A stretch of 64,000 nt of DNA. It comes from Calothrix sp. NIES-4105 (GTDB lineage Bacteria; Cyanobacteriota; Cyanobacteriia; Cyanobacteriales; Nostocaceae). Under the pieces are notes generated by a model that was given only the letters and a program-made list of their open reading frames with translations, had not been told where the DNA came from and ran no database searches. Location: the NCBI RefSeq assembly GCF_002368415.1, contig NZ_AP018292.1, forward strand, positions 62,001-126,000, in the 5' to 3' direction. Both the position numbers and the translations under genes were made by a program. How positions within the stretch are numbered: the stretch's first letter is position 1; each line of letters starts with the position of its first letter. This document shows positions 3,744 to 63,670 of the stretch, piece by piece.

Positions 3744-3903
3744 TGGCGCCACTCACTTCTCAAACATTAAAACCTTTTTGTTCGATGTAAACTTCTAGAT
3801 ATTGATGCTAACTCCAGTGAGGAACTTCGTTTGTTTCAGCACTACTAGCACCAATATGAACAAAATGCAAGATTTAAGGCAGAGTAAGATAGTGAAGTAA
3901 AAG

Positions 3904-4089
3904 CTAACTCAGTACAATTTCTTCAAAGCTGACTGTAAAACCATTCCCTTGAGGAGAAGCGCACATCAACCCGACTTGTAATGTTTCAGCTTTTGTTAGA
4001 TACGCCATACGCAGCATTGTGTAGTCTTTGCCATCCAACGAGTAGTAAACTTCTATCGCTTCTGCATGACGTTTTAGCCTTAAGTACTT
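3904..4089 (-). pseudogene. C-terminal fragment of a DUF1349 (lectin-like) protein
   Basis: The minus strand encodes YLRLKRHAEAIEVYYSLDGK and then LQVGLMCASPQGNGFTVSFE, the typical C-terminal half of DUF1349 proteins, a concanavalin-like beta-sandwich. A normal protein is about 200 residues and only some 60 family-like residues remain. The reading frame upstream to 4152 is AT-rich and unlike the family, so the N-terminal two thirds are lost. Confidence 0.6.
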
Positions 4090-4365
4090 AAAAATTTTAT
4101 TTTTGAAAGTTTTAGAATTTATTAAAAGTGTGAGTTGGCAGCTTACCAACAAATTTTCTATTTAATACCGATGCTCTAAAATTAATGCAACTAATTCTTA
4201 TCTAGCTAAATAAAATCATCTTATTAGATTAGTTGTTTTATACTGCATACAAGTGTTCTTAGGGTCATGGCGCCTTGGGGTGCGGAATGTGGGATAAAAA
4301 ACTTTATTTTTGATTTAAAACAGATGCAGGAAGCAATATTCCAAAATTAATGATGTTTGGGATTG

Positions 4366-4446
4366 GAGGCGCCTCTACTACCAAGCGCCCAGTTGAGTTT
4401 ATTTCCAGATAATAAATTTCGCACGCGGCGCCAAAAAAAGAAGGCA
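4366..4446 (+). pseudogene. N-terminal fragment related to the GIY-YIG protein at 8505
   Basis: The frame reads E-APLLPSAQLSLFPDNKFRT-RRQKKK, clearly related to APLLPPGAQLTLFPDRKFRA in the intact gene at 8505-9173. The fragment is bordered by GGCGCC at its left (4369-4374), contains another at 4427-4432, and then runs into an interspersed repeat at 4443. It is one part of a composite pseudogene region. Confidence 0.65.
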
Positions 4447-4500
4447 TCGATGGCAAGCTTCGCCGTGCCGAGACTGATTGTGCCAGTTGCGTAAGTCCTG
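4443..4500 (+). repeat. Interspersed repeat A, copy 1
   Basis: About 58 bases from GGCATCGAT through CGAGACTGATTG and CCAGTTGCGTAAG to CCTG, nearly identical to 5184-5242. It joins a GIY-YIG gene fragment on its left to an AcrVA2-like gene fragment on its right. Function unknown. Confidence 0.7.
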
Positions 4501-4709
4501 AAGTTAATGAACCAGTATTTGTAGGTGCCGTTTCCGGGGAATGCAAAAGAAATGTGGTGCTGCATAAACAACGCGCGCATATTTGGAAACAACAGTATAG
4601 TAAGGAGTTACAGTCTTGGCGGCACGTCTGGATTAAGGAGACAACGATACATAGGGATAAGTACGAGCAGGCGCCGCAACAATACCGAATTTATGAAGTC
4701 ATTGAATAA
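4500..4709 (+). pseudogene. C-terminal fragment of an AcrVA2-like protein
   Basis: The frame from 4500 to the TAA at 4707 gives EVNEPVFVGAVSGECKRN, then LHKQRAHIWKQQYSKELQSW and ending YRIYEVIE. It aligns end to end with the C-terminal 69 residues of the intact protein at 12290-13615. The upstream part of the gene is missing and replaced by repeat A. It has no start of its own and is probably not functional. Confidence 0.75.
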
Positions 4710-4710
4710 A

Positions 4711-4746
4711 AAATACGCCCTTTTACGAGCGTAGTAGTACTAATGT
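4711..4746 (+). repeat. Repeat B, copy 1 (hairpin, then AGTAGTACTAATGT)
   Basis: Shared with 16147-16182: AAATACGCCC, a short loop, GCGYAG and AGTAGTACTAATGT. The ACGCCC...G-GCGT halves can pair. A second shared block follows each copy: the stretch between two GGTGCC at 4844-4873 corresponds to the one between two GGCGCC at 16347-16377. Confidence 0.6.
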
Positions 4747-5317
4747 GATTTCAAGCCTATCACCTTAGAGTACATTTGCTTTATTTATTATTTAAATAAA
4801 TAAAATTTGTCTACTAGGGAAAAGTTAATGGAGCATACTAATGGGTGCCTGTGATTGTTATGGTGCAGGTGCCATATGTAGATACGATTATTGTTGTTTA
4901 TGACACTTATAACCAAAAATCTATATTTACAAATTGTAAAATTTAGGTTTTAAGCCGTTTTCAGCATTAATATGTGCCGTCAGGTCGATGGTCTAGCTTC
5001 GTTAAACCAAAATCGATTCCGGTGCCTTTATATTAAGTAAGTTGGCGCCGGAAAGCGCTACTATATTTTGTTTTGTAAAGAAGCTCAAACCCAGGCTAAA
5101 TTATGCTTTTATTAAAAGTTTACATTCTGTTACATAGTTAGTTTTATTTTTACTCACCTACTTATACAAATCGTGCCACTTCAGGCATCGATAGCATGGC
5201 TTCGCAGCGCCGAGACTGATTGTACCAGTTGCGTAAGCCCTGTTATAATCTTGTAATAGCACTAATTGGGACGGATAAATATAAAAAGATTTATAAGGGA
5301 ATTGGAGGTCAAATTGT
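4747..5317. other. Intergenic, no gene seen
   Basis: AT-rich spacer without a convincing gene. It holds the GGTGCC-bounded block 4844-4873 shared with 16347-16377, a GGCGCC at 5044-5049 and the second copy of repeat A (5184-5242). Short ORFs here are low-complexity or antisense. Confidence 0.6.
5184..5242 (+). repeat. Interspersed repeat A, copy 2
   Basis: Matches 4443-4500 over its length with a few substitutions and a short indel in the GGCAAGCTTCGC part. It sits about 75 bases upstream of the membrane-protein gene at 5318. Confidence 0.7.
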
Positions 5318-5749
5318 TTGGAGAAAGATAAGACATACGAGATATTACTCAAGTTGCTGGAAATAGAACAAAACAGGATTAACAGTCTTGATTCAACTGA
5401 ATTTACAATAAAAGGCTTGTCTGTAACTTTATTCTCTGCCTTCGTTGGTTTTGCATTTGATAAAAAAAGCCTAGTTCTTCTATATGTAGGAGTTGTAGCT
5501 GTTATATTTTCTTCAATTATAGATTTTATTTATAGAAAAGTTCAGTTATCGCATGTTGAAAAAGCCTCAAATATTTATAAATACTTGAAAAAAGAGTATT
5601 TGGAAAAAGTAGAATCATCAAATAATTTAAAGATTGCTAGTGAATATAAAAGTAATTTAATCAATGACTATTCACCTTTATTTATGCTATATTTTCCCAT
5701 GTTAGCTGTGTTGATTATGCTGACAAAATTTATTCCCTCTACTCGGTGA
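5318..5749 (+). CDS. Small membrane protein, three predicted TM helices
   Basis: 143 residues from a TTG start at 5318, chosen because GGAGG lies at 5304-5308 with a 9-base spacing. There is an N-terminal amphipathic helix, then two close hydrophobic helices (about residues 32-68, GLSVTLFSAFVGFAF and LLYVGVVAVIFSSIIDF), a charged cytosolic segment, and a C-terminal hydrophobic helix (PLFMLYFPMLAVLIML). The layout recalls small membrane effectors of the SLATT type, but no motif proves it. It lies convergent to the CHAT gene at 5889-7400. Family not recognised. Confidence 0.6.
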   Translation: MEKDKTYEILLKLLEIEQNRINSLDSTEFTIKGLSVTLFSAFVGFAFDKKSLVLLYVGVVAVIFSSIIDFIYRKVQLSHVEKASNIYKYLKKEYLEKVESSNNLKIASEYKSNLINDYSPLFMLYFPMLAVLIMLTKFIPSTR

Positions 5750-5888
5750 ATCTCTCATCGACTTTCTAGAAATTCGTAGTAGTTATGTTAGGTGTGGATA
5801 AGCATATATTAGTTAAAAATTGTTTGATAAAATAGTAACTACTTACTTTTCGCTCTTGCTTCCAGCAGTTACAAAACTCACTAAACAC

Positions 5889-7400
5889 CTAAATATTACA
5901 CCTCACAAGTCTCAAGGTGAGAAAAGAGACTGCACTTCCATACCACCCACACACACAACTCAACACCCAACCTAGCGGGAGGTGACCTGGAGGGGCTGAG
6001 ATATCAAAAATACCTTCATCGTACAAAATCACAGTTCCCTTCACTCTCCATCCAATAGCGTCGCCAAATTTTTCCCAAGCTTGTTGATAGTACTCACCAT
6101 CGGGTAAGCCACCAACACATAGGTAAATTTGTTTTTGAACGCTAAAACCAAAGTGTCCATCGCTGTATCTCACCCACAGCCGATCGATTGTACGAAGGTC
6201 TTTGCAGGGGAAATTGAGGAGATCGTCATGAACAAACCAGTCGCCCTCCTTTTTACCAACCGCCTGAATCATCATCCGATAAGTTTCTTGGTCTGCTTCT
6301 TTCCACTTTTGTGCTTTTAGGAAATCTCGGAGTTTGGTGTAGTCTACATTGCGAGCGCTACTTAGGTCATCGCTTGATGGAGGTTGTTGTCTTGACTCAG
6401 GAGTTTCAGCAGGAGCAGTTCTGTTTTGATTAGGACTAAAATCATTAACTTCTTTGCTGTGACTTACTGGGATGACTTCCTTTGCAAGCTGTGAACAAAG
6501 GATACCATTCTCCCATAAGGAGGGTACTGCATCTTGCAAAAGGTTTTCTAGTTCAATAGCAATTATACCTTCATCATAAGCTCTTTTAATAACAGCTTGA
6601 TTATTTACATTGTCATAACCCAACCCATCATAAAATCCTTGAGCAAAGACAATTGCTGCTCTATCTTGGATTGGCTGGTTCATACCAATAACATAATTAA
6701 CGTGTTTACCAATTGCCTCTGCTGATTTAGAAGAATAACAGGCATTCAGTAGTACACATTTCACACGTTCAGCGTGCAGCCTAAATAATGATACCAGTCC
6801 TCTAGGGGATACAGGTTTATTATTTCCGCCATCATCCTCCAAAAGCAAACTACCATCTTCCAAACCATGCCCACAGAAATGAACAATAGATGGTTGTTCT
6901 TCTGCAATAGCACGACGAATATCTTGAGGTCGCACAGCAGTTCTAATTTTTATTTCATATGAATCTCGTTTGACTGCACGTTTAATGGCATCTTCGATTT
7001 CACGAATCTCTTTATCCAAACGCAGCCCGTGAGGAATTGCTGTTAAAACTAATATTTTTTGTGGCTGATTAGTTTCTTTTGGGGGATTGTTAGTTAAGGG
7101 AACAGGTGATTTTCCTGGGTCAAGATTTAATAATTCTTGGGTAATAGCTTTTAGTTTTAGGTTTCCAGGGTTTTCTTTACACGCAGCATCAATTAATTGG
7201 TCAATCCATCCCTGAGATTCTGCTACTGCTATTAAGTTAAAAACAATAACTTTTAAATTACCTCCTCCAGCAACTACGTCTAAATTTTTCTCTAATCCAA
7301 ACGATAACATCTGCTTCAGGGATGATTTAGTCGGAAAAGCATCAATCAAAGCATCTTGTAGTTTTTTACGCTGCTGGCCAGATAAAGTCATATTTTTCAA
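5889..7400 (-). CDS. EAD1-CHAT protease-GUN4 fusion protein
   Basis: 503 residues in three domains. Residues 1-90 are an effector-associated domain 1 (EAD1; LSGQQRKKLQDALIDAFPTK, then SQGWIDQLIDAA). Residues about 114-300 are a caspase-like CHAT peptidase with catalytic His178 in HFCGHG and Cys221 in LLNACYSS. Residues about 350-503 are a GUN4 domain (DYTKLRDFLKAQKWKEAD, FGFSVQKQIY, SAPPGHLP and the typical end LRLVRCNI). CHAT proteases act in bacterial conflict and cell-death pathways; EAD1 pairs like with like to bring protease and partner together; GUN4 binds tetrapyrroles. I infer a protease gated by a tetrapyrrole or photosynthetic-stress cue. A second EAD1 protein is at 60350. Both catalytic residues are present. 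Confidence 0.88.
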   Translation of the reverse strand: MKNMTLSGQQRKKLQDALIDAFPTKSSLKQMLSFGLEKNLDVVAGGGNLKVIVFNLIAVAESQGWIDQLIDAACKENPGNLKLKAITQELLNLDPGKSPVPLTNNPPKETNQPQKILVLTAIPHGLRLDKEIREIEDAIKRAVKRDSYEIKIRTAVRPQDIRRAIAEEQPSIVHFCGHGLEDGSLLLEDDGGNNKPVSPRGLVSLFRLHAERVKCVLLNACYSSKSAEAIGKHVNYVIGMNQPIQDRAAIVFAQGFYDGLGYDNVNNQAVIKRAYDEGIIAIELENLLQDAVPSLWENGILCSQLAKEVIPVSHSKEVNDFSPNQNRTAPAETPESRQQPPSSDDLSSARNVDYTKLRDFLKAQKWKEADQETYRMMIQAVGKKEGDWFVHDDLLNFPCKDLRTIDRLWVRYSDGHFGFSVQKQIYLCVGGLPDGEYYQQAWEKFGDAIGWRVKGTVILYDEGIFDISAPPGHLPLGWVLSCVCGWYGSAVSFLTLRLVRCNI

Positions 7401-7487
7401 TAGAATTTATGCATAGAAGCTGTGGCAAGTTGGAAATTATTATTACTGGTTTCAAGCTATCGCTGGATTGCTCTCCTACAACACCGA

Positions 7488-7643
7488 TTACTTATTACTG
7501 TTTGCAAAGCTCTTATCAATCTCAGAATAGGAGCTTCGTTGATCCTTAACCATTGCTCGATTAGCCCTGTCACAATTCAAGCCGCGCAGGGCACAAGCCG
7601 CATGGAACCGCTTTTTCAGATTATCTGAAATACTGATGTGCAT
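7488..7643 (-). CDS. Small ribbon-helix-helix-like protein
   Basis: A 51-residue ORF on the minus strand from ATG at 7643 to TAA at 7488: MHISISDNLKKRFHAACALR, followed by GLNCDRANRAMVKDQRSS. The beta strand, 'LKKRFHAACALRGLN' helix and second helix are typical of CopG/ParG-type plasmid DNA-binding proteins. The second helix is less canonical than usual, so it could be a decaying copy. No strong ribosome-binding site is visible. It lies just upstream of the CHAT gene on the same strand and might regulate it; that is inference. Confidence 0.5.
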   Translation of the reverse strand: MHISISDNLKKRFHAACALRGLNCDRANRAMVKDQRSSYSEIDKSFANSNK

Positions 7644-7774
7644 AGGTGTTACAGTTTTATTGCTTTCCTCGCTAATTATATTTAAACATAGTTACAAAAG
7701 CACAAAATATGATTCCGGAATAATGTAAGCGAGGAGCGTTGTTGGCACCTGGAGCGCACTGAATGCTTATTATT

Positions 7775-7813
7775 AGGGTGTCTGACAAGGTACGTGCTGT
7801 CCAGAGACACCTT
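7775..7813. other. Imperfect hairpin
   Basis: AGGGTGTCT (7775-7783) pairs with AGACACCTT (7805-7813), extended inside by GACA/TGTC. It lies in the gene-poor stretch 7644-8338, has no T-run after it, and its role is unknown. Confidence 0.4.
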
Positions 7814-8338
7814 GTAAAGTTTTGTTATAGAATCCCTTATTAAGTTCCTACCTCTATTGATGCAATATCTACCGTAAACGTACAGACATAGCAAAAACCA
7901 ACCGAATCTCAATTCAAGTAATGCAGTTGTAATAAAAGTTTCAGCCATTTAAATAATGAGTATTTCAAAAGTAATACAAACTTTTTGCTATAAGTTTGGG
8001 TGTAAAAAAAGGTTAATATTTATGTATTGCTGAAATTTCAGGAAAAATAATCTTTTAATTATGTTTTAAGTAAAAACTTATACTTAAAGTTTCGATGTAT
8101 ATTTATTCTCTAAACTTCCATAATTATATACTGATGAAGTGATTGTAATCGGCGCCCGTCAAAAGTACACGGCACCGAACTATTGTATTTACGGCATCAA
8201 GTATTATAATACGCAAGTGGAGCTGAGAGTTAGAACGTTATTAAAACTAAACACTACTGCGGATAAATCCGCATTTTTGCCTTTGCGCCGATGCTTAAAA
8301 GCCAGGGGCGCGACCTCGCTTTATCTTGTTTACGTGTG
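7814..8338. other. Intergenic, no gene seen
   Basis: AT-rich spacer without supported coding. A possible 88-residue ORF on the minus strand (to 7948) has no family signal and no ribosome-binding site. One GGCGCC lies near 8151. Confidence 0.5.
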
Positions 8339-8407
8339 TTAGTTAACCGTCGGCACAAACCCACCATCGACTCGAATGTTAGCACCATTGATGTAGTCAA
8401 CAAGTAT
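8339..8407 (-). pseudogene. C-terminal fragment of a short-chain dehydrogenase (SDR)
   Basis: The minus strand reads VDYINGANIRVDGGFVPTVN then stop (8339-8341). 'YINGANIRVDGG' is the hallmark end of SDR-family NAD(P)-dependent oxidoreductases. Only about 22 residues remain of a protein normally near 250, and no other part of the gene is nearby. Confidence 0.7.
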
Positions 8408-8504
8408 GTGAACTAAGTATAGAAGGTTTTAAGAAGCGTAAGTATCAATGATGTTCTATATTTATATAAATCTTGTTGTAAAGTGAGGAATTAAGGGGTG
8501 TTCT

Positions 8505-9173
8505 GTGGATAAACCGCGCCAACTAGATATATTCTCAGACAACGGTATAGAACATGGTGAACCTCAGCAACTTGAACTGCCTCTGGAAAAATCGGCGCCT
8601 CTACTACCACCCGGCGCCCAGCTAACTCTATTCCCAGATAGAAAATTCCGCGCGCGTCGTTCCAAAGAACCAGTAATGGACGTTGATACATTACAGCGCT
8701 GGAAAAATCAAATATTGGAATATCAACAAATTGCGCGCGTAACTCCCCGAAGCGAACAAGTAGCATTGTTCGATTTGGCGCCTTCTCATTGTGACCCTGA
8801 ACGTATTGACCCATTGCAGTTGCAAATGCAGTCAATGGCGTTTTATCGAATGCCAGCAGATTATCCTGGGGAAGCTTGTTTATATTTTGTAATTGATTCG
8901 GCGCCGGGGTTAATTTTGTATATCGGTGAAACTTGCCGTAGTAATAAGCGGTGGAAGGGAATACACGATTGCAAGGAATATATAGCTAGTTACCAAGATT
9001 TACATCATAAGTACAAGTTGAAGACAGCTGTAAATATTGCTTTTTGGTGGGAAACTCCTCAAAGACGGGAATGGCGCCAGGAATTGGAGCAGTATTTAAT
9101 TGTCAAGTGGCGTAGCCCATTTAATAAGGAAAACTGGGCACGGTGGGGACAACCATTCGGCAAGATAGTTTAA
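8505..9173 (+). CDS. GIY-YIG nuclease-fold protein
   Basis: 222 residues from a GTG start at 8505. The N-terminal third is Gln/Leu/Pro-rich (LDIF..., QLTLFPDRK) and resembles linker sequences of cyanobacterial mobile genes. Residues about 124-205 form a GIY-YIG-like domain: CLYFVID (strand with the 'GIY' position), LILYIGET with YIG at 139-141, basic RSNKRWK, a Glu helix (WRQELEQYLI) and PFNKEN near the end. GIY-YIG enzymes cut DNA through a metal held by the helix Glu. The first 'GIY' triad is degenerate (YFV), so activity is uncertain. Fragments of relatives occur at 4366-4446 and 12146-12202. Confidence 0.65.
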   Translation: MDKPRQLDIFSDNGIEHGEPQQLELPLEKSAPLLPPGAQLTLFPDRKFRARRSKEPVMDVDTLQRWKNQILEYQQIARVTPRSEQVALFDLAPSHCDPERIDPLQLQMQSMAFYRMPADYPGEACLYFVIDSAPGLILYIGETCRSNKRWKGIHDCKEYIASYQDLHHKYKLKTAVNIAFWWETPQRREWRQELEQYLIVKWRSPFNKENWARWGQPFGKIV

Positions 9174-14855: not shown

Positions 14856-16029
<1,174 letters not shown>

Positions 16030-16182: not shown

Positions 16183-16371
16183 AGCTTCTAGTTTACCAGC
16201 AAGTGTAAGTACGTTTGATTTTTTTGTTATTTAATTTAGTAAAATTCATCCTCATGGCGCCTTCCTAGGTTAATGGTTGGTAATTAATCATAGTCAAGTA
16301 TCTACAAAAGCTTTGGTAGCGGCGATTTTTGGTTAATTATATATAAGGCGCCTGTGATTGTTGTGAGTGTA

Positions 16372-16643
16372 GGCGCCATATTTACTGATGAGAGGTTTGT
16401 GAGTCCGGCGTATAAAATCCTCAGTAATTAGTATTATTTTACTCCACAAATGTATAAGATTATCTAAGTATGGAATTTCGGCACCTGTATCTAAAAATTT
16501 CTTAAAAAATTAGTGTCAACTTTTTCGGACGGGACAGAAGTAGTGGCTGTAGCAACTACTATACAAACGATTATTATTAACGGACTATATTAAAGCGTGC
16601 GGATTCCGCCATCAAACCTGGTCTTTCTAAGGCTGGGTTTTTT
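16372..16643 (+). repeat. Repeat C, copy 1 (about 270 bp, carries a predicted small RNA)
   Basis: Starts at a GGCGCC (16372-16377). It shares with 23149-23397 and 26735-27010 these blocks in order: GAGTCCGGCGTATAAA, CAGTA...AGTAT, TATCTAAGTATGGA, an internal GGCGCC/GGCACC, AAAAAATAGTGTCAAC-like, TACAAACGATTATTATTAAC, TATATTAAAGCG and a terminator. It fills the gap between psbA and the exoprotein gene at 16797. Confidence 0.8.
16598..16643 (+). ncRNA. Predicted small RNA of repeat C, copy 1
   Basis: A TATATT -10-like box at 16586-16591 is followed by a mini-hairpin GCGG-ATT-CCGC (16599-16609) and an intrinsic terminator, AACCTGG...GCTGGGTT then T-run (16615-16643). The pairing is kept in the other two copies by wobble and compensatory changes. 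The start point is estimated from the -10 box; expression is not shown. Confidence 0.5.
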
Positions 16644-22558: not shown

Positions 22559-23086
22559 ATGCTACGCTATATTGCTACTAGATGCAACGACAAAACAACC
22601 AAAGCTCCTATCGACGGCGCCAAAATAACTCTTGAGAAAAGTGGCAAACCATATATAGCCCATACCGACAGTGAAGGATTATATCATTTGAATGCTTGTC
22701 TTGAAAAGGATTCAGAGTTCGCACGTATCCGCGTAGAGACAGAGGGATATGATAAATATAATAGAAATATTACTCTTTTATCAAATAATAATACAATCGA
22801 AGAAATTCATATAACCAAAATCCAAGCAAAGCCTAAAAAACGTTTTGACTTGGTAGGAGTTTCAACTGTACTAGGAACTGTTTTTGGTTTTATAAGTATT
22901 GTGATTGCTTACCAACAACTGGCGCCGAATAAACAAGACTGTGACCCATCATATCCAACATTGTGTTTATCTCAAAATATATCTAACTTAAAGTGTTCAG
23001 ATATTAAAGACCGTAACTTTAAGGTTAAACAACCAGATACTCACAACTTTGACCGTGATAAAAATGGAATCGGTTGCGAAAAATAG
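22559..23086 (+). CDS. Membrane-anchored Excalibur-domain protein
   Basis: 175 residues. The N-terminal part (KAPIDGAKITLEKSGKP, HTDSEGLYHLNA) is a carboxypeptidase-regulatory-like beta-sandwich; residues about 98-120 (VGVSTVLGTVFGFISIVIAY) are a transmembrane helix; the C-terminus (LKCSDIKDRNF, HNFDRDKNGIGCEK) is an Excalibur calcium-binding motif with the DxDxDGxxCE signature (Asn in one position). It is divergent from IS607 tnpA with only 29 bases between starts, so the element may have displaced its promoter or truncated its 5' end. Role likely at the cell surface. Confidence 0.7.
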   Translation: MLRYIATRCNDKTTKAPIDGAKITLEKSGKPYIAHTDSEGLYHLNACLEKDSEFARIRVETEGYDKYNRNITLLSNNNTIEEIHITKIQAKPKKRFDLVGVSTVLGTVFGFISIVIAYQQLAPNKQDCDPSYPTLCLSQNISNLKCSDIKDRNFKVKQPDTHNFDRDKNGIGCEK

Positions 23087-23148
23087 ATATGGGACGGCGC
23101 CTACCGTAACCTACGCGCCGAACAAACTAACTAATAAACAATTTTGTT

Positions 23149-26393: not shown

Positions 26394-26734
26394 AGCTATT
26401 TCCTTTGATTGATGTGTTTTTGGTATATAGACTTATGGAGTTAAACGAGGAGTGCTTTCTTAAAATTGAAAATCGCATTGCTTAATTATCAATAAGCGGG
26501 ATAAACTATCTCGTTCTATTTATTAACAGGGGTGACAAAATTAATTTATGCAGTCAGCAGTATCAAGCTGCCTCAGATTTTATATAATGATCTCCTAGGA
26601 AGATTGTGAAATAAAAGCTGGGCAAGGCTTTTAAGTTATGTGGAAAATTAATGTAAGCGTTTGAGATAGGGTAGGTGCCACTTCTAATTTATGCACTGAC
26701 ATGAAACTCAATCGAGCATCAGTACTATAAAACA
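26394..26734. other. Intergenic, no gene seen
   Basis: AT-rich spacer between the crystallin gene start and repeat C copy 3. It presumably includes the crystallin promoter on the minus strand. One GGTGCC near 26674. Confidence 0.4.
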
Positions 26735-27010
26735 GGCGCTGGATTTACTGATAAATCAAAAGCTTTGTGAGTCCGGCGTATAAATATTTCAGTATTAAGT
26801 ATTATTTGAATCCTTGTCTATAGAGATTTATCTAAGTGTGGAATATAGGCGCCGGAATCTAAAACTGTCTCAAAAAATCAATGTTAAATTTTCCGAAATC
26901 ATCAAACCAGTAGTTGTAGTAGCCAATATAGAAACGATTATTATTAACTTATTATATTAAAGCGTGCGGATATACTGCAATCAAACCTGGTCTGGAAAGG
27001 CTAGGTTTTT
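26735..27010 (+). repeat. Repeat C, copy 3
   Basis: Begins at GGCGCT (a one-base variant of GGCGCC) and shares with copy 4 the string TACTGATAAATCAAAAGC after it, then the whole block order of copies 1 and 2 to the terminator. The internal GGCGCC is at 26848-26853. Confidence 0.8.
26965..27010 (+). ncRNA. Predicted small RNA of repeat C, copy 3
   Basis: TATATT at 26953-26958; mini-hairpin GCGG...CTGC (26966-26978), where one G-C pair has become G-U; terminator AACCTGG/CTAGGTT (26984-27007) with U-A and G-U in place of C-G pairs of copy 2. Pairing is kept despite sequence change. Confidence 0.5.
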
Positions 27011-27985: not shown

Positions 27986-28097
27986 TAATCGCACTTATTA
28001 AATACGTTAATCAGGATTGGTAACAGCTGTAGCTATTGTATGGGCGCCTGTTATTCTTCCTCATTTAATTAAGAGTGCGCTTTTATATTTAAGGACA

Positions 28098-28216
28098 GGC
28101 GCCGATATTACTGATAAATCAAAAGCTTTATGAGTCCGGCGTATAAATATCCCAGTATTAAGTATAATTTTATTCATTATGTATGAGAATTATCTAAATG
28201 TGGAATATCAGGCGCC
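28098..28216 (+). repeat. Repeat C, copy 4, truncated at GGCGCC
   Basis: Starts at GGCGCC (28098-28103) and matches copy 3 through GAGTCCGGCGTATAAATAT and TTATCTAAATGTGGAATAT to the internal GGCGCC (28211-28216). Homology stops exactly there; the small-RNA half is absent. Confidence 0.8.
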
Positions 28217-28233
28217 GATATTTATATCCTTTC

Positions 28234-28517
28234 TTACAATAAACCTGCATCTAACTGTTCAAGATAGATAAACTCAGGAGCTTTAACGCCTGCCTCTTCT
28301 CTGATTTTAATTAGCTCTGGAGATTCAAAGAATTTTCTAGCATTGCTTATACATGTCCAAGCAGAGAAATGAACTATTATGCTCGTGGTTCATTTTCATA
28401 TTTAAGAACCTGGTAGGAACGCTCACCCGCTTCCCTTCTTATACTTGCAGCTTTGTCAAATACTTTTTTCCAGGCTTCATAATTTTCTACCTCATGAATA
28501 ATTAATACGTAATGCAT
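28234..28517 (-). pseudogene. Frameshifted dimeric alpha/beta-barrel (antibiotic-biosynthesis-monooxygenase-like) gene
   Basis: From ATG at 28517: HYVLIIHEVENYEAWKKVFD, then KAASIRREAGERSYQVLKY; near 28390 the frame shifts and continues IVHFSAWTCISNARKFFESP, ELIKIREEAGVKAPEF, stop at 28234. Joined, this is a typical ABM/EthD-like small barrel of about 93 residues. One frameshift separates the halves, so it is recently broken or carries a sequencing error. Confidence 0.7.
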
Positions 28518-29248: not shown

Positions 29249-29326
29249 GTGTTCCTACATATTATTTGGGAACATTGCGAAGAGAATATGAGGGTGAAAA
29301 TAAAAGATTTTTCTGATGACGGCGCC
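29249..29326 (+). repeat. Repeat E, copy 1
   Basis: Shares ATTATTTGGGAACA, GCGAAGAGAATATGAGGGT and a final GGCGCC (29321-29326) with copies at 30596 and 32259. Each copy lies upstream of a minus-strand gene for an exported protein, so it may be a regulatory or mobile block. After copies 1 and 3 a similar hairpin-forming GATTGATTATTTTTATT string appears (about 29540 and 32455). Confidence 0.6.
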
Positions 29327-29650
29327 TTTTTGATAAAAACAACGTATCATCAAGGGTTTGCTGCGGCACCTTTGTGCAGGTGACGACTGGTTCTACAGTA
29401 GTCACGGCACCTACTGGTAAAGCTTAATTCACAAAGCATGATATCAGTCGATATAGTAGCTGTATAAATAATGCCTAATAGTTTTTATCAGTACAAAATA
29501 CAGATGTATTTGATTATCCAATGCAGGCGTTATAATTAGGATTGATTATTTTTATTTAATCTAGGAAAAAAAAAGAGTTAATCATTCTTAACAGTAAGAC
29601 AGTAAGTATTAAGAATGTAGTGCCAAGTTATTAAATTCACAAATAAGGAG

Positions 29651-30583: not shown

Positions 30584-30931
30584 GATGCTGTTTAATTCAG
30601 TTTGTACCTTATATTATTTAGGAACACTGGGAGGCGAATATGAGGGTCAAAGCAAAATATTTATCTGGAATAGGTGCCATTATATACATACTTGTTGAAT
30701 AGCACCGACCTTTGGAGAAGGCACCGGGTTCTGGAGACCCAACGAAAGAGCAAGTTCCTCTGTAGTTAGCCACGAGCGTGGTGCTGTTGTCTTTACTTAT
30801 TAACCGCGATTAGCCCTGAGAACTTTTTTTACTCAGTTGCCGACTTTTCAAACATCCTCTTAGACTTTGAGTAAGTTGAGTAATAAATTTTGTTAAGTTC
30901 ATGTAGACTGTACACGTTCAATTATCCTCTT
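30584..30931. other. Intergenic with repeat E copy 2
   Basis: Holds repeat E copy 2 (30596-30678) and otherwise no gene. A GC-richer patch near 30700-30790 gives no recognisable product. Confidence 0.4.
30596..30678 (+). repeat. Repeat E, copy 2
   Basis: TTCAGTTTGTACCTTATATT, ATTTAGGAACACTG, GCGAATATGAGGGTCAA, AAAATATTTATCTGGA, ending at GGTGCC (30673-30678), a decayed GGCGCC. Nearly the same as 32259-32341. Confidence 0.7.
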
Positions 30932-32258: not shown

Positions 32259-32341
32259 TTCAGTTTGTACTCTATATCATTTGGGAACACTACGAAGCTA
32301 ATATGAGTGTCAAGGTAAAATATTTATCTGGAGCGGGCGCC
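32259..32341 (+). repeat. Repeat E, copy 3
   Basis: TTCAGTTTGTACTCTATATC, ATTTGGGAACACTACGAAGC, AATATGAGTGTCAAGG, AAAATATTTATCTGGAG, ending at GGCGCC (32336-32341), where homology to copies 1 and 2 stops. The remainder of 32081-32671 holds no gene. Confidence 0.7.
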
Positions 32342-36127: not shown

Positions 36128-36233
36128 GGCGCCGTTTATTTGTTGAAAGTCAGAACGATTGGTTCTCAAATAGTCATTTTAATTAGTACAAGGGTTTTGT
36201 ATATTTTCGCGTGAGGTAGTGAATATCGGCGCC
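36128..36233 (+). promoter_or_regulatory. GGCGCC-bounded upstream block with operator-like palindrome, copy 1
   Basis: Bounded by GGCGCC at 36128-36133 and 36228-36233. It contains AGAAC-N5-GTTCT (36152-36166) followed by CAAATAGT, and GTGAGGTAGT before the right end. The same block precedes the second PEP-CTERM gene (37233-37336). The palindrome could bind a regulator shared by both genes. Confidence 0.5.
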
Positions 36234-36457
36234 AGAAATATAGAGTAAAAAATATGACAATAAACAGAATCAACAGCCAGTCAGGGGCGCCCGTATTAAC
36301 AAATACTTTGTGCCCCTACTGTGATAGTTGGTTGAAGGCGCCACGGTCACGGCTGGCACTTATCATCAGGTTATTTGATAGCCCTAGTTGTGAAAAATAA
36401 GCAGTTACTATATCCTAATGGTTATATTAAGTAATTTCCACATTTATAAGGGCAGTT

Positions 36458-37237: not shown

Positions 37238-37336
37238 CGTGCGTTTATCCGAGAACGAGTTGTTCTCAAATTGTACTAGCGAGTAGTACAGCTATTGCTT
37301 GTGCATTTCAACGTGAGGCAGTAAGAGATAGGCGCC
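37233..37336 (+). promoter_or_regulatory. GGCGCC-bounded upstream block with operator-like palindrome, copy 2
   Basis: Bounded by GGCGCC at 37233-37238 and 37331-37336. Contains a perfect GAGAAC-N5-GTTCTC palindrome (37251-37267) followed by AAATTGT, and GTGAGGCAGT near the right end. About 185 bases upstream of the PEP-CTERM pseudogene. Confidence 0.5.
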
Positions 37337-37451
37337 AGGAGAAACGCATGTCTATTTTTCCAAAATTTGTTCAATAAATAGCAAAAAATATCTATTAGTT
37401 ATTTGATTACAAGTATGATAATATCCCTTCAGAATTAATATAGGCGCCCTA

Positions 37452-47429: not shown

Positions 47430-48401
47430 ATGACTAAAAACTTAGCATACTATTCTAAAAAGTTTTCCCCGAAGGTTAAAACAACAAATCCCAGTGGTTT
47501 AAATGTGAACCGCTCTATGGGTACGGCGCCCAACAAACCAATTTTACTGCTATCCATTATTGAACTCATTAGCAGGGGAGGGATAAGAAAAAACCAAATA
47601 CCCTTATCTGGCGAACTTGTAGCTACATTTATGAATGTTTGGCGCCACTTAGAACCAAACCGCAATCCAGACATCGGACAACCGTTTTTCTACTTACGCA
47701 GTGATGGATTTTGGCACTTCCAACCGAACCCTGGTTTTGAGCTAGCGATTAATTCTAAGGCAAAACTTGTATCAGCAGGCGCCTTAAAACAAGCTGTGGA
47801 GTACGCATATTTTGATGATGAGTTGTGGCAAATTTTACAAGACTCTCATGATAGAAGTGTGTTGATACAGGTGTTGATAGATGAATGGTTTAGTGGCGCC
47901 AGTAATATTGAAGGAATTTTACAAGTAAATGTTTTTGCCCAGTTGCAGGAAGAGTTAGAGCGCGCTGGGGGCAAAATTTATCAACCAGAAGAACTTAATT
48001 CTGAGCAGAAAGTTATAGTTCGAGATGCCGCATTTCGTAAAATTGTTGCTACTACTTATGGCTACCGATGTGCGTTTTGTGGATACCAAGTACTTGATAT
48101 TCAGGGGCAAGGTATTATAGATGGCGCCCATATCAAGCCGTTTGCTAAATACTTTGATGACCGTATAGATAACGGTTTATCGTTGTGCAAAAATCACCAT
48201 TGGGGATTTGACCGTGGCTGGTTTTCTATCAATGATGACTACACAATTATCGTTTCTGAGGAATTGAGGGAAGAGGCGCCGAATTGTAAACCAATGAGAG
48301 AATTTGTCGGAGAGTCGATTATACTACCCGCAAAACAACAGTATTATCCCAGAATAGAAGCATTGCGATGGCATAGAGAGAATATATTTGATGCTGCTTG
48401 A
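47430..48401 (+). CDS. HNH restriction endonuclease-like protein (HNH_2 type)
   Basis: 323 residues. The N-terminal half (NKPILLLSIIELISRGGIRK, WRHLEPNRNPDIGQPFFYL) is typical of putative McrA-like restriction enzymes. The C-terminal HNH_2 domain has CAFCGYQVLDI, IIDGAHIKPF and NGLSLCKNHHWGFDRGW, with the Cys pair, catalytic His and Asn/His block all present. Such enzymes cut modified or foreign DNA. It is followed 53 bases later by the 111-residue gene at 48455, perhaps as a pair. A fragment of its C-terminus recurs at 53326-53451, beginning at the GGCGCC found here at 48275-48280. Confidence 0.8.
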   Translation: MTKNLAYYSKKFSPKVKTTNPSGLNVNRSMGTAPNKPILLLSIIELISRGGIRKNQIPLSGELVATFMNVWRHLEPNRNPDIGQPFFYLRSDGFWHFQPNPGFELAINSKAKLVSAGALKQAVEYAYFDDELWQILQDSHDRSVLIQVLIDEWFSGASNIEGILQVNVFAQLQEELERAGGKIYQPEELNSEQKVIVRDAAFRKIVATTYGYRCAFCGYQVLDIQGQGIIDGAHIKPFAKYFDDRIDNGLSLCKNHHWGFDRGWFSINDDYTIIVSEELREEAPNCKPMREFVGESIILPAKQQYYPRIEALRWHRENIFDAA

Positions 48402-48454
48402 ATGAAAGGCGCCTTATTTGTAAGATATTAGTTATAAAATGATATATAACATTT

Positions 48455-48790
48455 ATGCCTTGGCTGTATATTCCCCACAAAAAACCTGAAGAAATCAAAG
48501 AGGACGATGAACTTTGGTATATTGGATTTGATAAAATTTATTTTGTAGTAGAAGAAGATTGCATTTACTTCGAGTATCAATCTGATAGTAAAGCAAATGT
48601 GATTTCTAGCCGCAATAAGGATAACTTTGCTGTTAGAGTGGCACCGAACGGTAAAGTTAAAGGTAAGGGGTCTGTTACTCACAAATCCACAATTGAATAT
48701 ATTTATAGCTGGTACAAAATAGCTACAGGGGAAATACAAGCCAATCTACCATCTAAATTTATTGGCTCTCTAATTTACGACTCCGAGTGA
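48455..48790 (+). CDS. Small duplicated protein, copy 1
   Basis: 111 residues: MPWLYIPHKKPEEIKEDDEL, WYIGFDKIYFVVEEDCIYFE, YQSDSKAN, then a basic centre (RVAPNGKVKGKGSVTHKSTI) and a helical end. About 80% identical to 56216-56548. Family not recognised; size and pairing with the HNH gene suggest a control or immunity partner, which is inference. The shared DNA with the second copy extends past the stop to a GGCGCC (48830-48835) and ends there. Confidence 0.6.
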   Translation: MPWLYIPHKKPEEIKEDDELWYIGFDKIYFVVEEDCIYFEYQSDSKANVISSRNKDNFAVRVAPNGKVKGKGSVTHKSTIEYIYSWYKIATGEIQANLPSKFIGSLIYDSE

Positions 48791-48881
48791 AAAGGCTTGT
48801 GAGGTATTAGAATAAATACGGCGCCTTGAAATCACAACACCATCTTGTATATTTTAAAACACGCTCTATACTCGAATAACT

Positions 48882-53243: not shown

Positions 53244-53325
53244 ATCAAAAAGTAACACTAGGCGCCACCTGCATGAAGTGGTAAGTGACAATCAAGAGGC
53301 GCCTACTTTAAATCAACCATTATAG

Positions 53326-53451
53326 GCGCCTAATTGTAAACCAATGCGCGATATGGACGGAGAATCAATAATATTACCAGCGCAACAGCAATATTACCCG
53401 CGCACGGAGGCGCTACAGTGGCATCGAGATAATGTATTCGATGCTGCTTGA
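53326..53451 (+). pseudogene. C-terminal fragment of the HNH_2 gene
   Basis: APNCKPMRDMDGESIILPAQ, QQYYPRTEALQWHRDN, VFDAA then stop. It aligns with the last 41 codons of the gene at 47430-48401. The fragment begins exactly at a GGCGCC (53325-53330), the same site as in the intact gene (48275-48280), and its 3' flank ends at another GGCGCC (53470-53475). Confidence 0.85.
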
Positions 53452-53695
53452 AGAACTAGAATAATATACGGCGCCTGAACAATCTTACAGCTAACTATAA
53501 AGCAGTTTTGTTCGTTGCCGCTGTTCAAATATGCTTTAGAATTAGCTATAATTGAATTTGCATAAAAGCTTATAAGTTTATTTAGAAACCTCCTTCCTTT
53601 ATATCCTCAATGCTTACTACTAAACCAATCAATGCAAATATAGAGCCGAATATTAAACCACAAACTTCAATAATTTGAAAACTTAATTTTCAGTT

Positions 53696-56153: not shown

Positions 56154-56215
56154 GCGTAATTTTTATTTTGGTGACGTATTAGTTATATAATTATAAAAAA
56201 TAATATTTAATAATT

Positions 56216-56548
56216 ATGCCGTGGCTATACGTCCCTTATAAAAAATCAGAAGAGATAAAAGATTCGGATGAACTCTGGTATGTTGGGTTTGATAAAATAT
56301 ATTTTCAAGTAGAAGAAAATTGTATTTACTTCGAGTATCAATCTAATAGTAAAGCTTCTGTCAGCGCTAGCCGTAATAAAGATAACTTTGCTGTAAGAGT
56401 GGCGCCGGACGGTAAAATTAAAGGCAAGGGTTCTGTTACTCATAAAGCCACAATTGAAAATGCCTATAACTGGTATAAAATCGCTACTGGAGAAACACAC
56501 ACTAATTTATCATCCAAATTTGTTGACTCCCTGATTTATGATGAGTAA
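56216..56548 (+). CDS. Small duplicated protein, copy 2
   Basis: 110 residues: MPWLYVPYKKSEEIKDSDEL, WYVGFDKIYFQVEENCIYFE, then RVAPDGKIKGKGSVTHKATI. Paralogue of 48455-48790; here it stands without the HNH gene, which survives only as the fragment at 53326. Substitutions are mostly conservative, so both copies look functional. Downstream homology with copy 1 ends at GGCGCC (56578-56583). Confidence 0.6.
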   Translation: MPWLYVPYKKSEEIKDSDELWYVGFDKIYFQVEENCIYFEYQSNSKASVSASRNKDNFAVRVAPDGKIKGKGSVTHKATIENAYNWYKIATGETHTNLSSKFVDSLIYDE

Positions 56549-56603
56549 GAGTACTTGTAAGGTATTAGAATAAATACGGCGCCTGAATACACTATAAGTA
56601 AGG

Positions 56604-58622: not shown

Positions 58623-58652
58623 AGCCTTAATAAAGGTACATTTCAGCGCCCA

Positions 58653-58739
58653 TTAATCAACCATCATTTCAGCTAGCATGGCAGCGTTAATCGCGCGCGC
58701 TTCTTCATCGGAGCGTTCTAAAATATCAAAGGCGCCATC
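58653..58739 (-). pseudogene. GGCGCC-bounded C-terminal fragment of the gene at 59384
   Basis: DGAFDILERSDEEARAINAA, MLAEMMVD then stop, nearly the same as the end of 59384-59863. Homology is limited to the stretch between AGCGCC (58646) and GGCGCC (58731-58736); the corresponding stretch in the intact gene is between GGCGCC at 59376 and 59462. Confidence 0.85.
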
Positions 58740-58800
58740 AAGACATTGGAACATTACTTTATTGGCAATGGTCTTTCTTGTCAGTTTTGGCAATAAATTA

Positions 58801-59364: not shown

Positions 59365-59383
59365 TTATCGTGAAGGGCGCCTA

Positions 59384-59863
59384 TTAATCAACCAACATTT
59401 CAGCTAACATTGCATCGTTAATCGCGCGCGCTTCTTCATCAGAGTGTTCCAGAATATCAAAGGCGCCATTAATTGCTTCTTGTACTTTGGCTGGCAACGC
59501 TTCAAATTTATCTGTATCAATGATGTGAATTCTACAACCTGTGTATGGCGTAAAATCAATAAACGGTTGCATTCCATGTTTCATTAGTAGCTTAGACAAT
59601 AATATTATTGGTTGTCGAGGTTTATCATTGTCTGAAGTGCTGTTAATCTCCGAGGCAAAGTATCCGCACAGCCAGCTTAAACTATCAATATCCTGATTTA
59701 ATGTTTTTACCAAACCTTGTAATACTTTGTTGTTAAGCTCAACAGGGAGATTATCAAATATTTTATCAAGCGCTTCAGGATTCCGGTGCCGACAATTATT
59801 AACTGCTTGTTCAATAAATTTATCAAGTTTAGTAGGTTGGGATTTACCGAATCCTTTTGACAT
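59384..59863 (-). CDS. Conserved hypothetical protein
   Basis: 159 residues, helical: KLDKFIEQAVNNCRHRNPEA, LQGLVKTLNQDIDSLSWLCG, KQGM-like HGMQPFIDFTPYTG and an acidic end (ILEHSDEEARAINDAMLAEM). No family recognised. Fragments of its C-terminus recur at 58653-58739 and 57562-57630, all bordered by GGCGCC. Confidence 0.6.
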   Translation of the reverse strand: MSKGFGKSQPTKLDKFIEQAVNNCRHRNPEALDKIFDNLPVELNNKVLQGLVKTLNQDIDSLSWLCGYFASEINSTSDNDKPRQPIILLSKLLMKHGMQPFIDFTPYTGCRIHIIDTDKFEALPAKVQEAINGAFDILEHSDEEARAINDAMLAEMLVD

Positions 59864-61249: not shown

Positions 61250-61288
61250 AAAAGATTGAAAATAATATTTGATGGTGCCTCTCACTAC

Positions 61289-62482: not shown

Positions 62483-62506
62483 ACGCGCGCTTTTAAATTA
62501 AATTGA

Positions 62507-62713
62507 TTAAGAACCTGAACCACCGGAGCGAAAACTACCAAAGCCACTAGCTCTGCTACTAGGAGCGCTGCGGTAGTGGGGACTTACATAAGTTCCGTTG
62601 CTACGAGTGTAACCACTAACATAAACTCTCGAACTACTATAACCAGAGTATCCAGAGTACCCGGAGTAACCACTACTTCCTGTACTACTATAAGTACTGC
62701 TCGAATCATCCGC
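62507..62713 (-). pseudogene. Ser/Gly/Tyr-rich fragment of the GSP_synth partner (YgiB-like)
   Basis: The minus strand encodes DDSSSTYSSTGSSGYSGYSG, then VYVSGYTRSNGTYVSPHYR and SGFGSFRSGGSGS with stop at 62507-62509. There is an in-frame TAA directly upstream and no start codon, so the N-terminal part is gone. Position 25 bases before the GSP_synth start on the same strand suggests the old operon partner. Confidence 0.55.
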
Positions 62714-62855
62714 TTAACGATGGCGCCAGTTGGTATATGGGCAAGAATTTAACGGCGATATGTATGTAAATGGTGAAGATTTCTCTTAACTATTTACAAT
62801 TTAGTTTTCATTCATAGAATATCTGATACATACAGATATATTGCTTTATCAATAA

Positions 62856-63122
62856 CTAAGCATTCTCGTTTGAATTTTCGTTTTCATCGTTAGTACTTTG
62901 GATAGTACGTTTATTAAAGGCAGGGAATGTAAATTTAGGATACTGCTCTTCACACGCGTGCAGTTTATCAAATATAGGCGCCTCCACACCAGTCACAACA
63001 CACCAAACGCGCGCACGGGTGAGAGCAACATGAGCATTTAAATTTAATTCAAAAGTACTACTTAATAAGGAACGGGCAACAGCGAGGAACAAACTATTGA
63101 ACGTTCCGTAATTAGGTTTAGT
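62856..63122 (-). pseudogene. C-terminal fragment of a UvrD-type helicase
   Basis: TKPNYGTFNSLFLAVARS, then NAHVALTRARVWCVVTGVEA; 'VALTRAR..CVVTG' is motif VI of superfamily 1 helicases. An in-frame stop lies just upstream, and the ATPase part is missing. A TTG at 63092 could start a 78-residue product, but the motif context marks it as a remnant. Confidence 0.6.
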
Positions 63123-63130
63123 TTACTCCG

Positions 63131-63364
63131 CTATTCTTGTTTTTCCTGTTTTGGCTTGATATCCTTATCATTCTGGAGTCCTAACAACTCGTGCAGATGG
63201 TAATAAATCCCATACTTAACTTCACTCTCAACTTTATACCTTCTTCCATAGCCTCCGCCTTCTCCTCCTCCATCAAGCGTGTGACCATCATCACAAGAGC
63301 TGTATTCTTCCTCATCGACTCTTTTTCTTCCTGCCATCTCTATCAATTCTTTTTGCTTTTCCAT
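63131..63364 (-). CDS. Small hydrophilic protein
   Basis: 77 residues with AAGGAGG 8 bases before the ATG, the best ribosome-binding site in this region. Sequence: QKELIEMAGRKRVDEEEYSS, GHTLDGGGEGGGYGRRYKVE, then a helical HLHELLGLQND. Family not recognised. Confidence 0.5.
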   Translation of the reverse strand: MEKQKELIEMAGRKRVDEEEYSSCDDGHTLDGGGEGGGYGRRYKVESEVKYGIYYHLHELLGLQNDKDIKPKQEKQE

Positions 63365-63664
63365 TAACTTATCCTCCTTTATCTCTTGTAGTTTTTTACA
63401 AAGCGAGCTTCAAATAAGAAACCCGCTTTTTTACGATACTTACTATATATTCTTTCTGAACTGCAAGAACTTATGCACCCATTACATATAGTGCTTCCCA
63501 GCTAGGGCGAGGTACATTTTTAACGGCGCCTTTATGAGTTGTTTGAAGCGTGAAGAATGTGGCGCCTGTTGATTAACATAAGATAGCTCTTCATAGTAGG
63601 GGCAAAGCCTGAACGTTAACAGGCGCCTCATATAAAGTATCTAAGTATCTGAGTATTTAAGTAC
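63365..63664. other. Spacer with GGCGCC cluster and octamer repeat
   Basis: No gene. Holds three GGCGCC (near 63525, 63561 and 63622), and the 8-bp periodic tract 63634-63670 begins here. Confidence 0.5.
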
Positions 63665-63670
63665 CTAAAT
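63634..63670 (+). repeat. 8-bp periodic repeat
   Basis: AAAGTATC, TAAGTATC, TGAGTATT, TAAGTACC, TAAAT: the clearest tract of the family; follows GGCGCC at 63622. Confidence 0.7.

Follow-up and report, generated by a model that had tools for sequence, protein, structure and literature searches.

The function of highly iterated palindromes (HIPs) in cyanobacteria has been debated since the 1990s. HIP1 (GCGATCGC) is reported at a deletion in Synechococcus (Gupta 1993) and is reported to promote excision (Robinson 1997; both cited through PMC4390886, PMC6331805 and PMC6604393), and it has also been described as an insertion target of the repeat SDR5 (Elhai 2008, through PMC4390886). In its accessible text, Elhai 2015 (PMC4390886) refers to evidence that implicates HIP1 in site-specific recombination and states that there is none linking it to homologous recombination. 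From what these sources present, a role of HIPs in recombination has so far been proposed on the basis of one deletion and some cloned constructs. For Calothrix PCC 7103, Elhai 2015 gives GGCGCC as alternative HIP, and this was the only paper recovered in our literature search on GGCGCC and Calothrix, the coverage of which mostly left out subscription journals.

Here we analysed a window of 64,000 nucleotides, the whole stretch under study, which is part of contig C3 (365,907 b), a large plasmid-sized replicon of Calothrix sp. NIES-4105. A sequence-only reading had proposed that duplicated modules in the window begin and end at GGCGCC by a mechanism not known to have been described. The latter statement was too strong, since HIP1 has already been linked to deletion, excision and SDR5 insertion. 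As in the Synechococcus HIP1 cases, where an iterated palindrome lies at a deletion and promotes excision, the sites found here are iterated palindromes. Those cases involve GCGATCGC and one locus or cloned sequences, whereas here many families, natural replicons and joints between loci are involved. SDR5 likewise places DNA exactly at an iterated palindrome, but it is one repeat module, while GGCGCC ends are spread over 27 families that differ in length and mostly have a single GGCGCC end.

GGCGCC as the iterated palindrome of the genus

The window contains 173 copies of GGCGCC (1 per 370 b), compared with 4.67 expected, and 0/100 shuffles reached the observed count. The whole genome holds 18131 copies in 12.04 Mb (reversed control, 7), and over-representation is seen in this genome and in 6/6 congeners, with 7475-20380 copies each. 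In 18/18 genomes from other genera of the family, the count does not exceed 530. GGCGCC as a HIP is not strictly confined to this clade: in a set of 16 genomes from other families, 2493 copies were counted in G032 (control 38) and 1106 in G025 (control 603). HIP1 is nearly absent; C3 has a single copy and the 800-kb chromosome sample has 8. GGCGCC shows the many-fold genome-wide excess of a HIP, has replaced HIP1 in this clade and is the alternative HIP of the genus. The alternative HIP described by Elhai 2015 (PMC4390886) is the same palindrome, with the same extreme over-representation and near absence of HIP1.

Among the one-off variants of GGCGCC, 297/438 are GGTGCC or GGCACC, which is how an m5C at the inner C would be expected to decay and what Elhai's model requires (PMC4390886). 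The genome encodes 17 Pfam matches to PF00145, candidate methyltransferases for GGCGCC. Orthologous pairs retain the palindrome in 79% of cases, compared with 32-68% for 14 other hexamers and 7% for its one-off variant GGTGCC. On C3, the 30 nt that follow stop codons hold 10.97 copies of GGCGCC per kb, and the 150 nt that precede them hold 2.3-2.9 per kb. Elhai 2015 (PMC4390886), in its accessible text, ties HIPs to methylation and mismatch repair and presents no data on homology ends at GGCGCC.

Homology ends at GGCGCC

Before counting, self matches, tandem or adjacent pairs (49/315 HSPs in the C3 end count, 81/758 in a mixed 1.07-Mb sample) and redundant ends within about 15 nt were dropped, and in most tests ends <30 nt from a sequence edge were left out. 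On C3, 28/284 non-redundant ends had GGCGCC among the final 12 columns of each copy, against 5.5 expected; where neither copy lay inside the window, the count was 23/227 against 4.9. In a shift null, ends were moved by 25-400 nt in 500 rounds and scored when both copies lay <=6 nt from GGCGCC. This gave 5/37 ends in the window (null 0.34, maximum 3), 23/223 on C3 outside it (3.39, maximum 9) and 28/283 on all of C3 (4.05, maximum 11). Since the observed ends exceed the shift null, ends on C3 lie closer to GGCGCC than random placement would put them, the opposite of the outcome that the sequence-only reading had named as counting against it. The excess was strongest where both copies are non-coding (18/119 ends, 15%, against 1.44 expected). 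About 10% of the C3 homology ends lie at GGCGCC and about 90% elsewhere; the effect is real, though smaller than had been implied.

The excess recurred in the mixed sample (17/501 ends, 3.79 expected), in comparisons of C3 with congener contig C9 of G004 (12/215, 3.11 expected) and with congener G002 (5/50, 0.68 expected), and among chromosome paralogues (5/333, 0.9 expected). C9 alone gave a weaker replicate (8/293, 2.58 expected; P about 0.005), and P values here assume independent ends, which is only partly true; a few sites recur across comparisons. Pooled, 53/841 ends lie at GGCGCC against 13.1 expected. The excess persisted in 5/5 scoring schemes (16-28 observed, 4.7-6.5 expected). The ends are sharp and are true termini: identity drops from 0.80 inside to 0.26 outside, the random value being 0.27, and homology resumes within 1.5 kb past 7/53 GGCGCC ends versus 169/788 other ends. 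GGCGCC ends were found in 27/103 C3 repeat families, 17 of the 27 consisting of a single HSP.

Six repeat families had been named as starting or stopping at the palindrome or its one-base variants, and three of them were confirmed. The 111-aa ORF block 48415..48826 is 80% identical to its second copy at 56177..56584, and both end at GGCGCC, 48820-48825 (previously placed at 48830) and 56578-56583. The repeat C copies 26732..26854 and 28095..28217 (86% identity) likewise end at 26848-26853 and 28211-28216. The 3' part of the HNH_2 gene (48274..48402) and a detached fragment (53324..53452, 75% identical) share their start at GGCGCC (48275-48280 and 53325-53330) but have no shared site at the far end, which falls 6 nt short of 48408 in the gene and 18 nt short of 53470 in the fragment. 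The remaining three agree in part. The fragment 58646..58741, said to span exactly one stretch between two palindromes, is 90% identical to 59377..59472; the right GGCGCC is common to both (58731-58736, 59462-59467), but the left is exact only at 59376-59381 and reads AGCGCC in the fragment. The upstream blocks said to be bounded on both sides, 36152..36235 and 37252..37338, show real similarity (score 41, where the highest value from 200 shuffles was 27). It runs to the right-hand GGCGCC in both (36228 and 37331) but begins 19 and 14 nt beyond the left site, so that the blocks have a GGCGCC boundary on one side only. PEP-CTERM was the earlier label for the genes beside these blocks, and a Pfam search of 36458-37126 gave no match. 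For repeat E, the copies 29259..29332 and 32274-32347 carry GGCGCC 6 nt inside the end (29321 and 32336), whereas after the third (30593-30669) comes the variant GGTGCC, at 30673.

Other blocks in the window have such ends. Block 4368..4438 starts at GGCGCC 4368 and its partner (8594..8669, 78%) at GGCGCC 8594; block 16371..16507 begins at GGCGCC 16372 and its partner 28097-28239 at GGCGCC 28098. Block 22918..23101, 73% identical to C9 187643-187464, shares GGCGCC at both ends (22921-22926, 23096-23101). A 5.7-kb stretch (3390..9084) is missing at the syntenic place in G002, where 35 unrelated bases are found. In this copy GGCGCC lies close to the two break points, at 3404-3409 and 9073-9078; at the break in G002 there is no GGCGCC, the nearest lying 29 nt into the right flank. 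A plasmid search with window positions 40-64 kb returned one short match only.

Block 22918..23101 is one of four two-ended blocks among the 61 with a GGCGCC end; the other 57/61 have the palindrome at one end. Broken down by comparison, two-ended blocks number 2/30 in C3, 0/11 in C9, 1/14 in C3 against C9 and 1/6 in C3 against G002, one block being counted twice. Counted by ends, the opposite end lies at GGCGCC in 8/53, to which each two-ended block contributes twice, and the baselines of the four comparisons give about 3.9. The claim of blocks bounded on both sides is thus upheld weakly at best, by four cases against 57, and two-ended cassettes as the rule were rejected. Three pairs show the pattern of HIP-mediated excision, with both ends at the palindrome and one copy left, although the direction could be either way: C3 27097 versus 1848..1933, C9 264381 versus 127535..127617, and C9 249853 versus 252987..255570.

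Syntenic chromosomes showed no effect. In syntenic chromosome comparisons, made on collinear chains only, GGCGCC lay at 2/346 block ends (2.64 expected) and 3/184 gap edges (1.85% at random). Homology thus ends sharply at GGCGCC in many families, also in DNA outside the window, but these counts give no support to general genome-wide shuffling. None of 23 chromosomal indels with a repeat of at least 6 bp had GGCGCC as that repeat; the orthologous indel scan comprised 2406 gaps, mostly noise of permissive global alignment. A 120-kb comparison of G002 with itself gave 0/33 ends (0.08 expected). Overall, GGCGCC fell in the junction zone of three-way switch points no more often than by chance (C3, 7 against 4.0; C9, 4 against 4.3). 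In 71 clean insertions, the repeat was GGCGCC in 5 and TGACCA in 6 (mostly neighbouring gene copies on C9). As a HIP1 control, plasmid A of Trichormus variabilis (350 of 366 kb) had HIP1-core ends at 2/125 against 0.5-0.7, too low a count to carry weight either way. Mean identity at the events is 81%, so most are old, and because of this no event was watched.

Explanations for the excess

Chance was ruled out by the expected counts and the shift null. Joints could instead form passively wherever at least six bases are shared, with GGCGCC merely the commonest GC-rich shared hexamer. GGCGCC accounts for 2.3% of the coincident hexamer pairs on C3, for 9.3% of those with at least 3 GC and for 43% of those with at least 5 GC, a share that passive microhomology could explain if GC-rich matches alone were relevant. 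Annealing would also favour extra matches, and at least one is present just outside GGCGCC at 31/53 ends (random site pairs, 29%), part of these being background from the 12-column window. In the mixed sample, GC-rich hexamers numbered 70 against 45.1, in a list that includes hexamers overlapping GGCGCC. However, once GGCGCC ends are removed, other hexamers with at least 5 GC show little excess at the pooled ends (39 against 33.9), although on C3 alone they reach 19 against 13.8, and those with all six GC fall to 1 against 4.9 at the pooled ends. In a test limited to HSPs at least 60 columns long whose outside identity was <=0.4, the terminal match run includes GGCGCC at 33/579 ends (simulated, 12.0). 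Runs of at least 6 that lack it are not in excess (254 against 270), and terminal runs lacking it are no longer than those at simulated random breaks. General microhomology was rejected on these hexamer and terminal-run tests, and we regard it as unlikely. An alignment artefact, in which decaying alignments stop on GGCGCC because it is more conserved than its flanks, draws on the 79% conservation given above. Against it, identity just inside GGCGCC (0.80) equals the block average (0.81) and is random outside; gapped anchored extension is 1.04 at GGCGCC ends, compared with 0.88 at random and 1.45 at other ends; and syntenic chromosome alignments, with equal GGCGCC conservation, lack the end excess. 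A scoring artefact was rejected on the agreement of all schemes and a conserved-island artefact on end sharpness; we consider this explanation very improbable.

The high density of GGCGCC just after stop codons raises the possibility of a functional boundary, at which paralogous genes lose similarity. Gene-end-like sequence in both copies is indeed found at 11/31 non-coding GGCGCC ends versus 63/250 others, but across all ends the shares are about equal (12/53 versus 145/788). Moreover, the strongest excess on C3 is at ends non-coding in both copies, and for 13 of these 18 the nearest ORF of at least 90 aa is 95-461 nt away in both copies. A gene-end effect as the main cause was rejected and has hardly any probability left. 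Small mobile repeats that target GGCGCC for insertion, in the manner of SDR5 and HIP1, would account for the four blocks with GGCGCC at both ends and for an 80-bp block at C3 1848-1933, which has an inverted repeat and GGCGCC on its flanks and the right half of which recurs beside GGCGCC at C9 221752. A single mobile element should leave numerous copies, each fixed at both ends; across the whole signal we found instead ends in 27/103 families, mostly single HSPs, and 57/61 blocks one-ended. A single mobile family was rejected for the whole signal and seems rather unlikely, while the 80-bp block could still be such an element.

Proposed joining of GGCGCC sites and its meaning

The excess of homology ends suggests that DNA has been broken or rejoined at GGCGCC. 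Our best reading, which we consider probable, is illegitimate recombination between GGCGCC sites, a variant of HIP1-linked deletion and excision. On C3 and the similar-sized congener contig, non-homologous segments would have been joined repeatedly, GGCGCC to GGCGCC, each joint leaving two loci homologous through the palindrome and unrelated past it. Most events would be single junctions, and few would be excisions of a palindrome-flanked block. Breakage or strand exchange would occur at GGCGCC in both partners and would probably be tied to methylation of the inner cytosine. Ku (PF02735) was found in 0/7 genomes of the genus, with a control match in B. subtilis, and because of this, joining may proceed by annealing of short sequences or by a cut-and-join enzyme. 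The Vsr nickase (PF03852) was found in 0/7 genomes (control match in 5/14), and the RE_HaeII nuclease profile in 0/7, although its control matched nowhere either. More tentatively, as a possibility that we would not favour at present, a sequence-specific, methylation-linked activity might break or exchange strands at GGCGCC and join palindrome to palindrome in unrelated loci, so that the alternative HIP would provide genome-wide interchangeable joints remodelling the plasmid-like replicons of the genus.

A clade with a changed palindrome is a natural experiment on HIPs. If the new palindrome also marks joints, the link would follow the HIP role, or methylation, and not the letters of HIP1. The recombination hypothesis would thereby be open to direct test by simple excision assays and methylase removals.

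GGCGCC as the iterated palindrome of the genus

The window holds 173 copies of GGCGCC, compared with 4.67 in dinucleotide shuffles. In the 12.04-Mb genome of Calothrix sp. NIES-4105, 18131 copies stand against 7 of the reversed control CCGCGG. The palindrome is abundant in all 6 congeners (7475–20380 copies each), whereas each of 18 genomes from other genera of the family contains at most 530. Among 16 genomes from other families of the order, G032 contains 2493 (control 38) and G025 contains 1106 (control 603); the 6.2-Mb G032 perhaps carries a second, independent highly iterated palindrome (HIP) of this sequence. CCGCGG itself is strongly avoided, with 7 copies in the genome under study and 1–8 in each congener. 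The classical palindrome HIP1 is nearly missing (1 copy on contig C3, which carries the window, and 8 in the 800 kb of chromosome sampled). An alternative HIP has been described in Calothrix PCC 7103, in the text available as PMC4390886 (Elhai 2015), and it matches GGCGCC here.

The window covers positions 62001-126000 of C3, a contig of 365,907 bases; gene content and size suggest that C3 is a putative plasmid. It carries a psbA- or psbD-type gene for a photosystem II reaction centre (PF00124, window 14947-16029), DnaB, two TPS secretion genes and a TnpB-like nuclease. A 521-aa gene lacking a Pfam match (window 24366-25931) has 3 more copies, on the chromosome, with 82–86% identical DNA and 8 matches in the congener G002 (72–81%), five of equal score, and from these copies it behaves like a mobile element. 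The 5.7-kb stretch at window 3390-9084 has no counterpart at the syntenic place in G002, which holds 35 unrelated bases. Coding sequence of C3 has 2.36 GGCGCC per kb and non-coding sequence 4.35; for the chromosome sample the figures are 1.51 and 0.98 per kb, respectively. On C3, including the window, the density of the palindrome reaches 10.97 per kb in the first 30 nt downstream of stop codons, measured over 234 ORFs of at least 120 aa, whereas the 150 nt upstream of the stops have 2.3–2.9 per kb; in the 60 nt after stops it is 7.94 per kb on C3 and 1.38 in the chromosome sample.

Homology ends at GGCGCC

C3 was aligned to itself, redundant ends were merged, and an end was assigned to GGCGCC when both copies held the palindrome within the last 12 alignment columns. 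GGCGCC was found at 28/284 ends, compared with 5.47 expected from the same alignments, and at 23/227 ends (4.89 expected) when neither copy lay in the window. Shifting the ends by 25–400 nt in 500 rounds gave 4.05, with a maximum of 11, against 28/283 observed. The sequence-only reading that duplicated modules start and stop nearer GGCGCC than chance is thus partly borne out on the entire contig. Five scoring schemes yielded 16–28 such ends with 4.7–6.5 expected. The counts were 18/119 (1.44 expected) where both copies were non-coding, 6/62 (1.05) where one was coding and 4/103 (1.42) where both were coding. GGCGCC at the same offset in both copies peaked in the last 12 nt, and none was found in the first 6 nt outside. 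When repeats were grouped by overlaps of at least 30 nt, 27 of the 103 families on C3 had a GGCGCC end, 17 of them single pairs, which rules out a single repeat as the source.

Excesses were also observed in C9, a contig of the congener G004 (8/293 ends, 2.58 expected; 376 of 392 kb aligned to itself), in C3 against C9 (12/215, 3.11 expected) and in C3 against 120 kb of G002 (5/50, 0.68 expected); the G002 sequence against itself gave 0/33 (0.08 expected). A mixed set of 52 stretches, 1.07 Mb with the window counted in, gave 17/501 versus 3.79, and chromosome paralogues in the 800-kb sample gave 5/333 versus 0.9. Syntenic chromosome comparisons showed no effect, either at block ends (2/346, 2.64 expected) or at gap edges (3/184 versus 1.85%), and GGCGCC was used in 0/23 chromosomal indels with a repeat of at least 6 bp.

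Conserved islands, gene ends and microhomology

Conserved palindromes within decaying homology, or the ends of genes, could mimic such joints. The copies had an identity of 0.80 over the 30 columns inside the palindrome, near the block mean of 0.81, and of 0.26 over the 20 nt outside it, close to random C3 pairs (0.27); ends elsewhere retained slight similarity outside (0.32). Homology resumed within 1.5 kb at only 7/53 GGCGCC ends, compared with 169/788 other ends. Therefore the GGCGCC ends look like true termini rather than islands. Gene ends are rejected as the main cause, since 13 of the 18 non-coding pairs on C3 lie 95–461 nt from any ORF of at least 90 aa in both copies, and gene-end-like sequence accompanies 12/53 GGCGCC ends and 145/788 others. 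Among non-coding ends the figures are 11/31 and 63/250, a mild difference against recombination.

Passive microhomology, or GC-richness alone, would predict that other shared words serve equally well. Across the four comparisons (C3, C9, C3 against C9, C3 against G002; 841 ends), GGCGCC was found at 53 ends versus 13.1 expected, and it lay inside the terminal match run at 33/579 sharp ends versus 12.0 simulated. Ends without GGCGCC shared a hexamer of at least 5 GC in 39 cases versus 33.9 (19 versus 13.8 on C3 alone) and of 6 GC in 1 versus 4.9, and match runs of at least 6 without it numbered 254 versus 270 simulated; taken together, this disfavours the passive explanation. Any other shared hexamer occurred at 528 ends versus 465. 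In favour of the passive explanation, the bases just outside GGCGCC gave 0, 1 and 2+ extra matches at 22, 17 and 14 of the 53 ends, compared with 71, 21 and 8% of random site pairs; these extra matches would fit annealing and are partly background.

Single joints and a possible mechanism

The sequence-only reading had also proposed shuffling of whole blocks bounded by the palindrome. Two-ended blocks do exist, one of them at window 22918-23101 with its partner on C9, where homology ends at GGCGCC, but they make up only 4 of the 61 blocks with a GGCGCC end (C3 2/30, C9 0/11, C3 against C9 1/14, C3 against G002 1/6; the block at C3 41518-41550 enters twice). Counting each two-ended block twice, GGCGCC also stood at the other end in both copies in 4/28, 0/8, 2/12 and 2/5 cases in the same order, with baselines of 27/283, 6/293, 11/215 and 5/50. 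Coupling of ends is thus weak at best; judged from these alignments, single joints are the rule (57/61) and two-ended blocks the exception.

Several places pair one site with two. The single GGCGCC at C3 27097 corresponds to GGCGCC, 74 bases and GGCGCC at C3 1848-1933, and part of the 74 bases recurs next to a GGCGCC at C9 221752. This 80-bp bounded block, outside the window, contains the inverted repeat TTCCACCATTGGTGGA and is possibly a small mobile repeat targeting GGCGCC. Likewise, C9 264381 pairs with two sites at C9 127535..127617 (copies 89–96% alike), and C9 249853 with two at C9 252987..255570. At C3 264271-264276, a left block whose partner has GGTGCC and a right block whose partner has GGCGCC overlap by exactly this hexamer. 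Three-way switch points overall were not enriched in GGCGCC (7 versus 4.0 and 4 versus 4.3). Of 71 clean insertions, 5 were flanked on either edge by GGCGCC as the repeat, and in two of these the overlaps measured 27 and 40 nt; TGACCA flanked 6, mostly in neighbouring gene copies on C9.

The way the palindrome changes points to methylation. In orthologous chromosome alignments of 7 genomes of the genus at two loci (around L045 and L022), GGCGCC remained identical in 79% of the 3962 cases aligned, where 14 other hexamers reached 32–68% and the variant GGTGCC 7%; GGTGCC therefore looks like a transient product of decay. Among one-off replacements, 297/438 were GGTGCC or GGCACC, as deamination of m5C at the inner C would produce. 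The repair enzyme Vsr was found in 0/7 genomes, and the genome under study has 17 PF00145 matches, which at family level are candidate DNA methyltransferases.

Taken as sequence patterns, the joints probably reflect illegitimate recombination from GGCGCC to GGCGCC, whichever mechanism is at work. The full palindrome is present in both partners, so the joining step would appear to require it in both. This step could proceed by annealing where single-strand gaps or breaks are centred on GGCGCC, by nicking at the methylated site by a mismatch-repair or restriction-like enzyme, or by strand exchange through an unknown recombinase. Ku was found in 0/7 genomes, and therefore classical end joining is unlikely.

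Among the papers listed by our literature searches, none dealt with GGCGCC at the ends of homology. For HIP1, as cited in PMC4390886, PMC6331805 and PMC6604393, the first report is a paper on a metallothionein-locus deletion (Gupta 1993), a title states that HIP1 promotes excision (Robinson 1997), and SDR5 inserts into HIP1 (Elhai 2008). With the present data, this idea of HIP1 recombination, by deletion, excision or insertion, is carried over to many loci and to a HIP other than HIP1.
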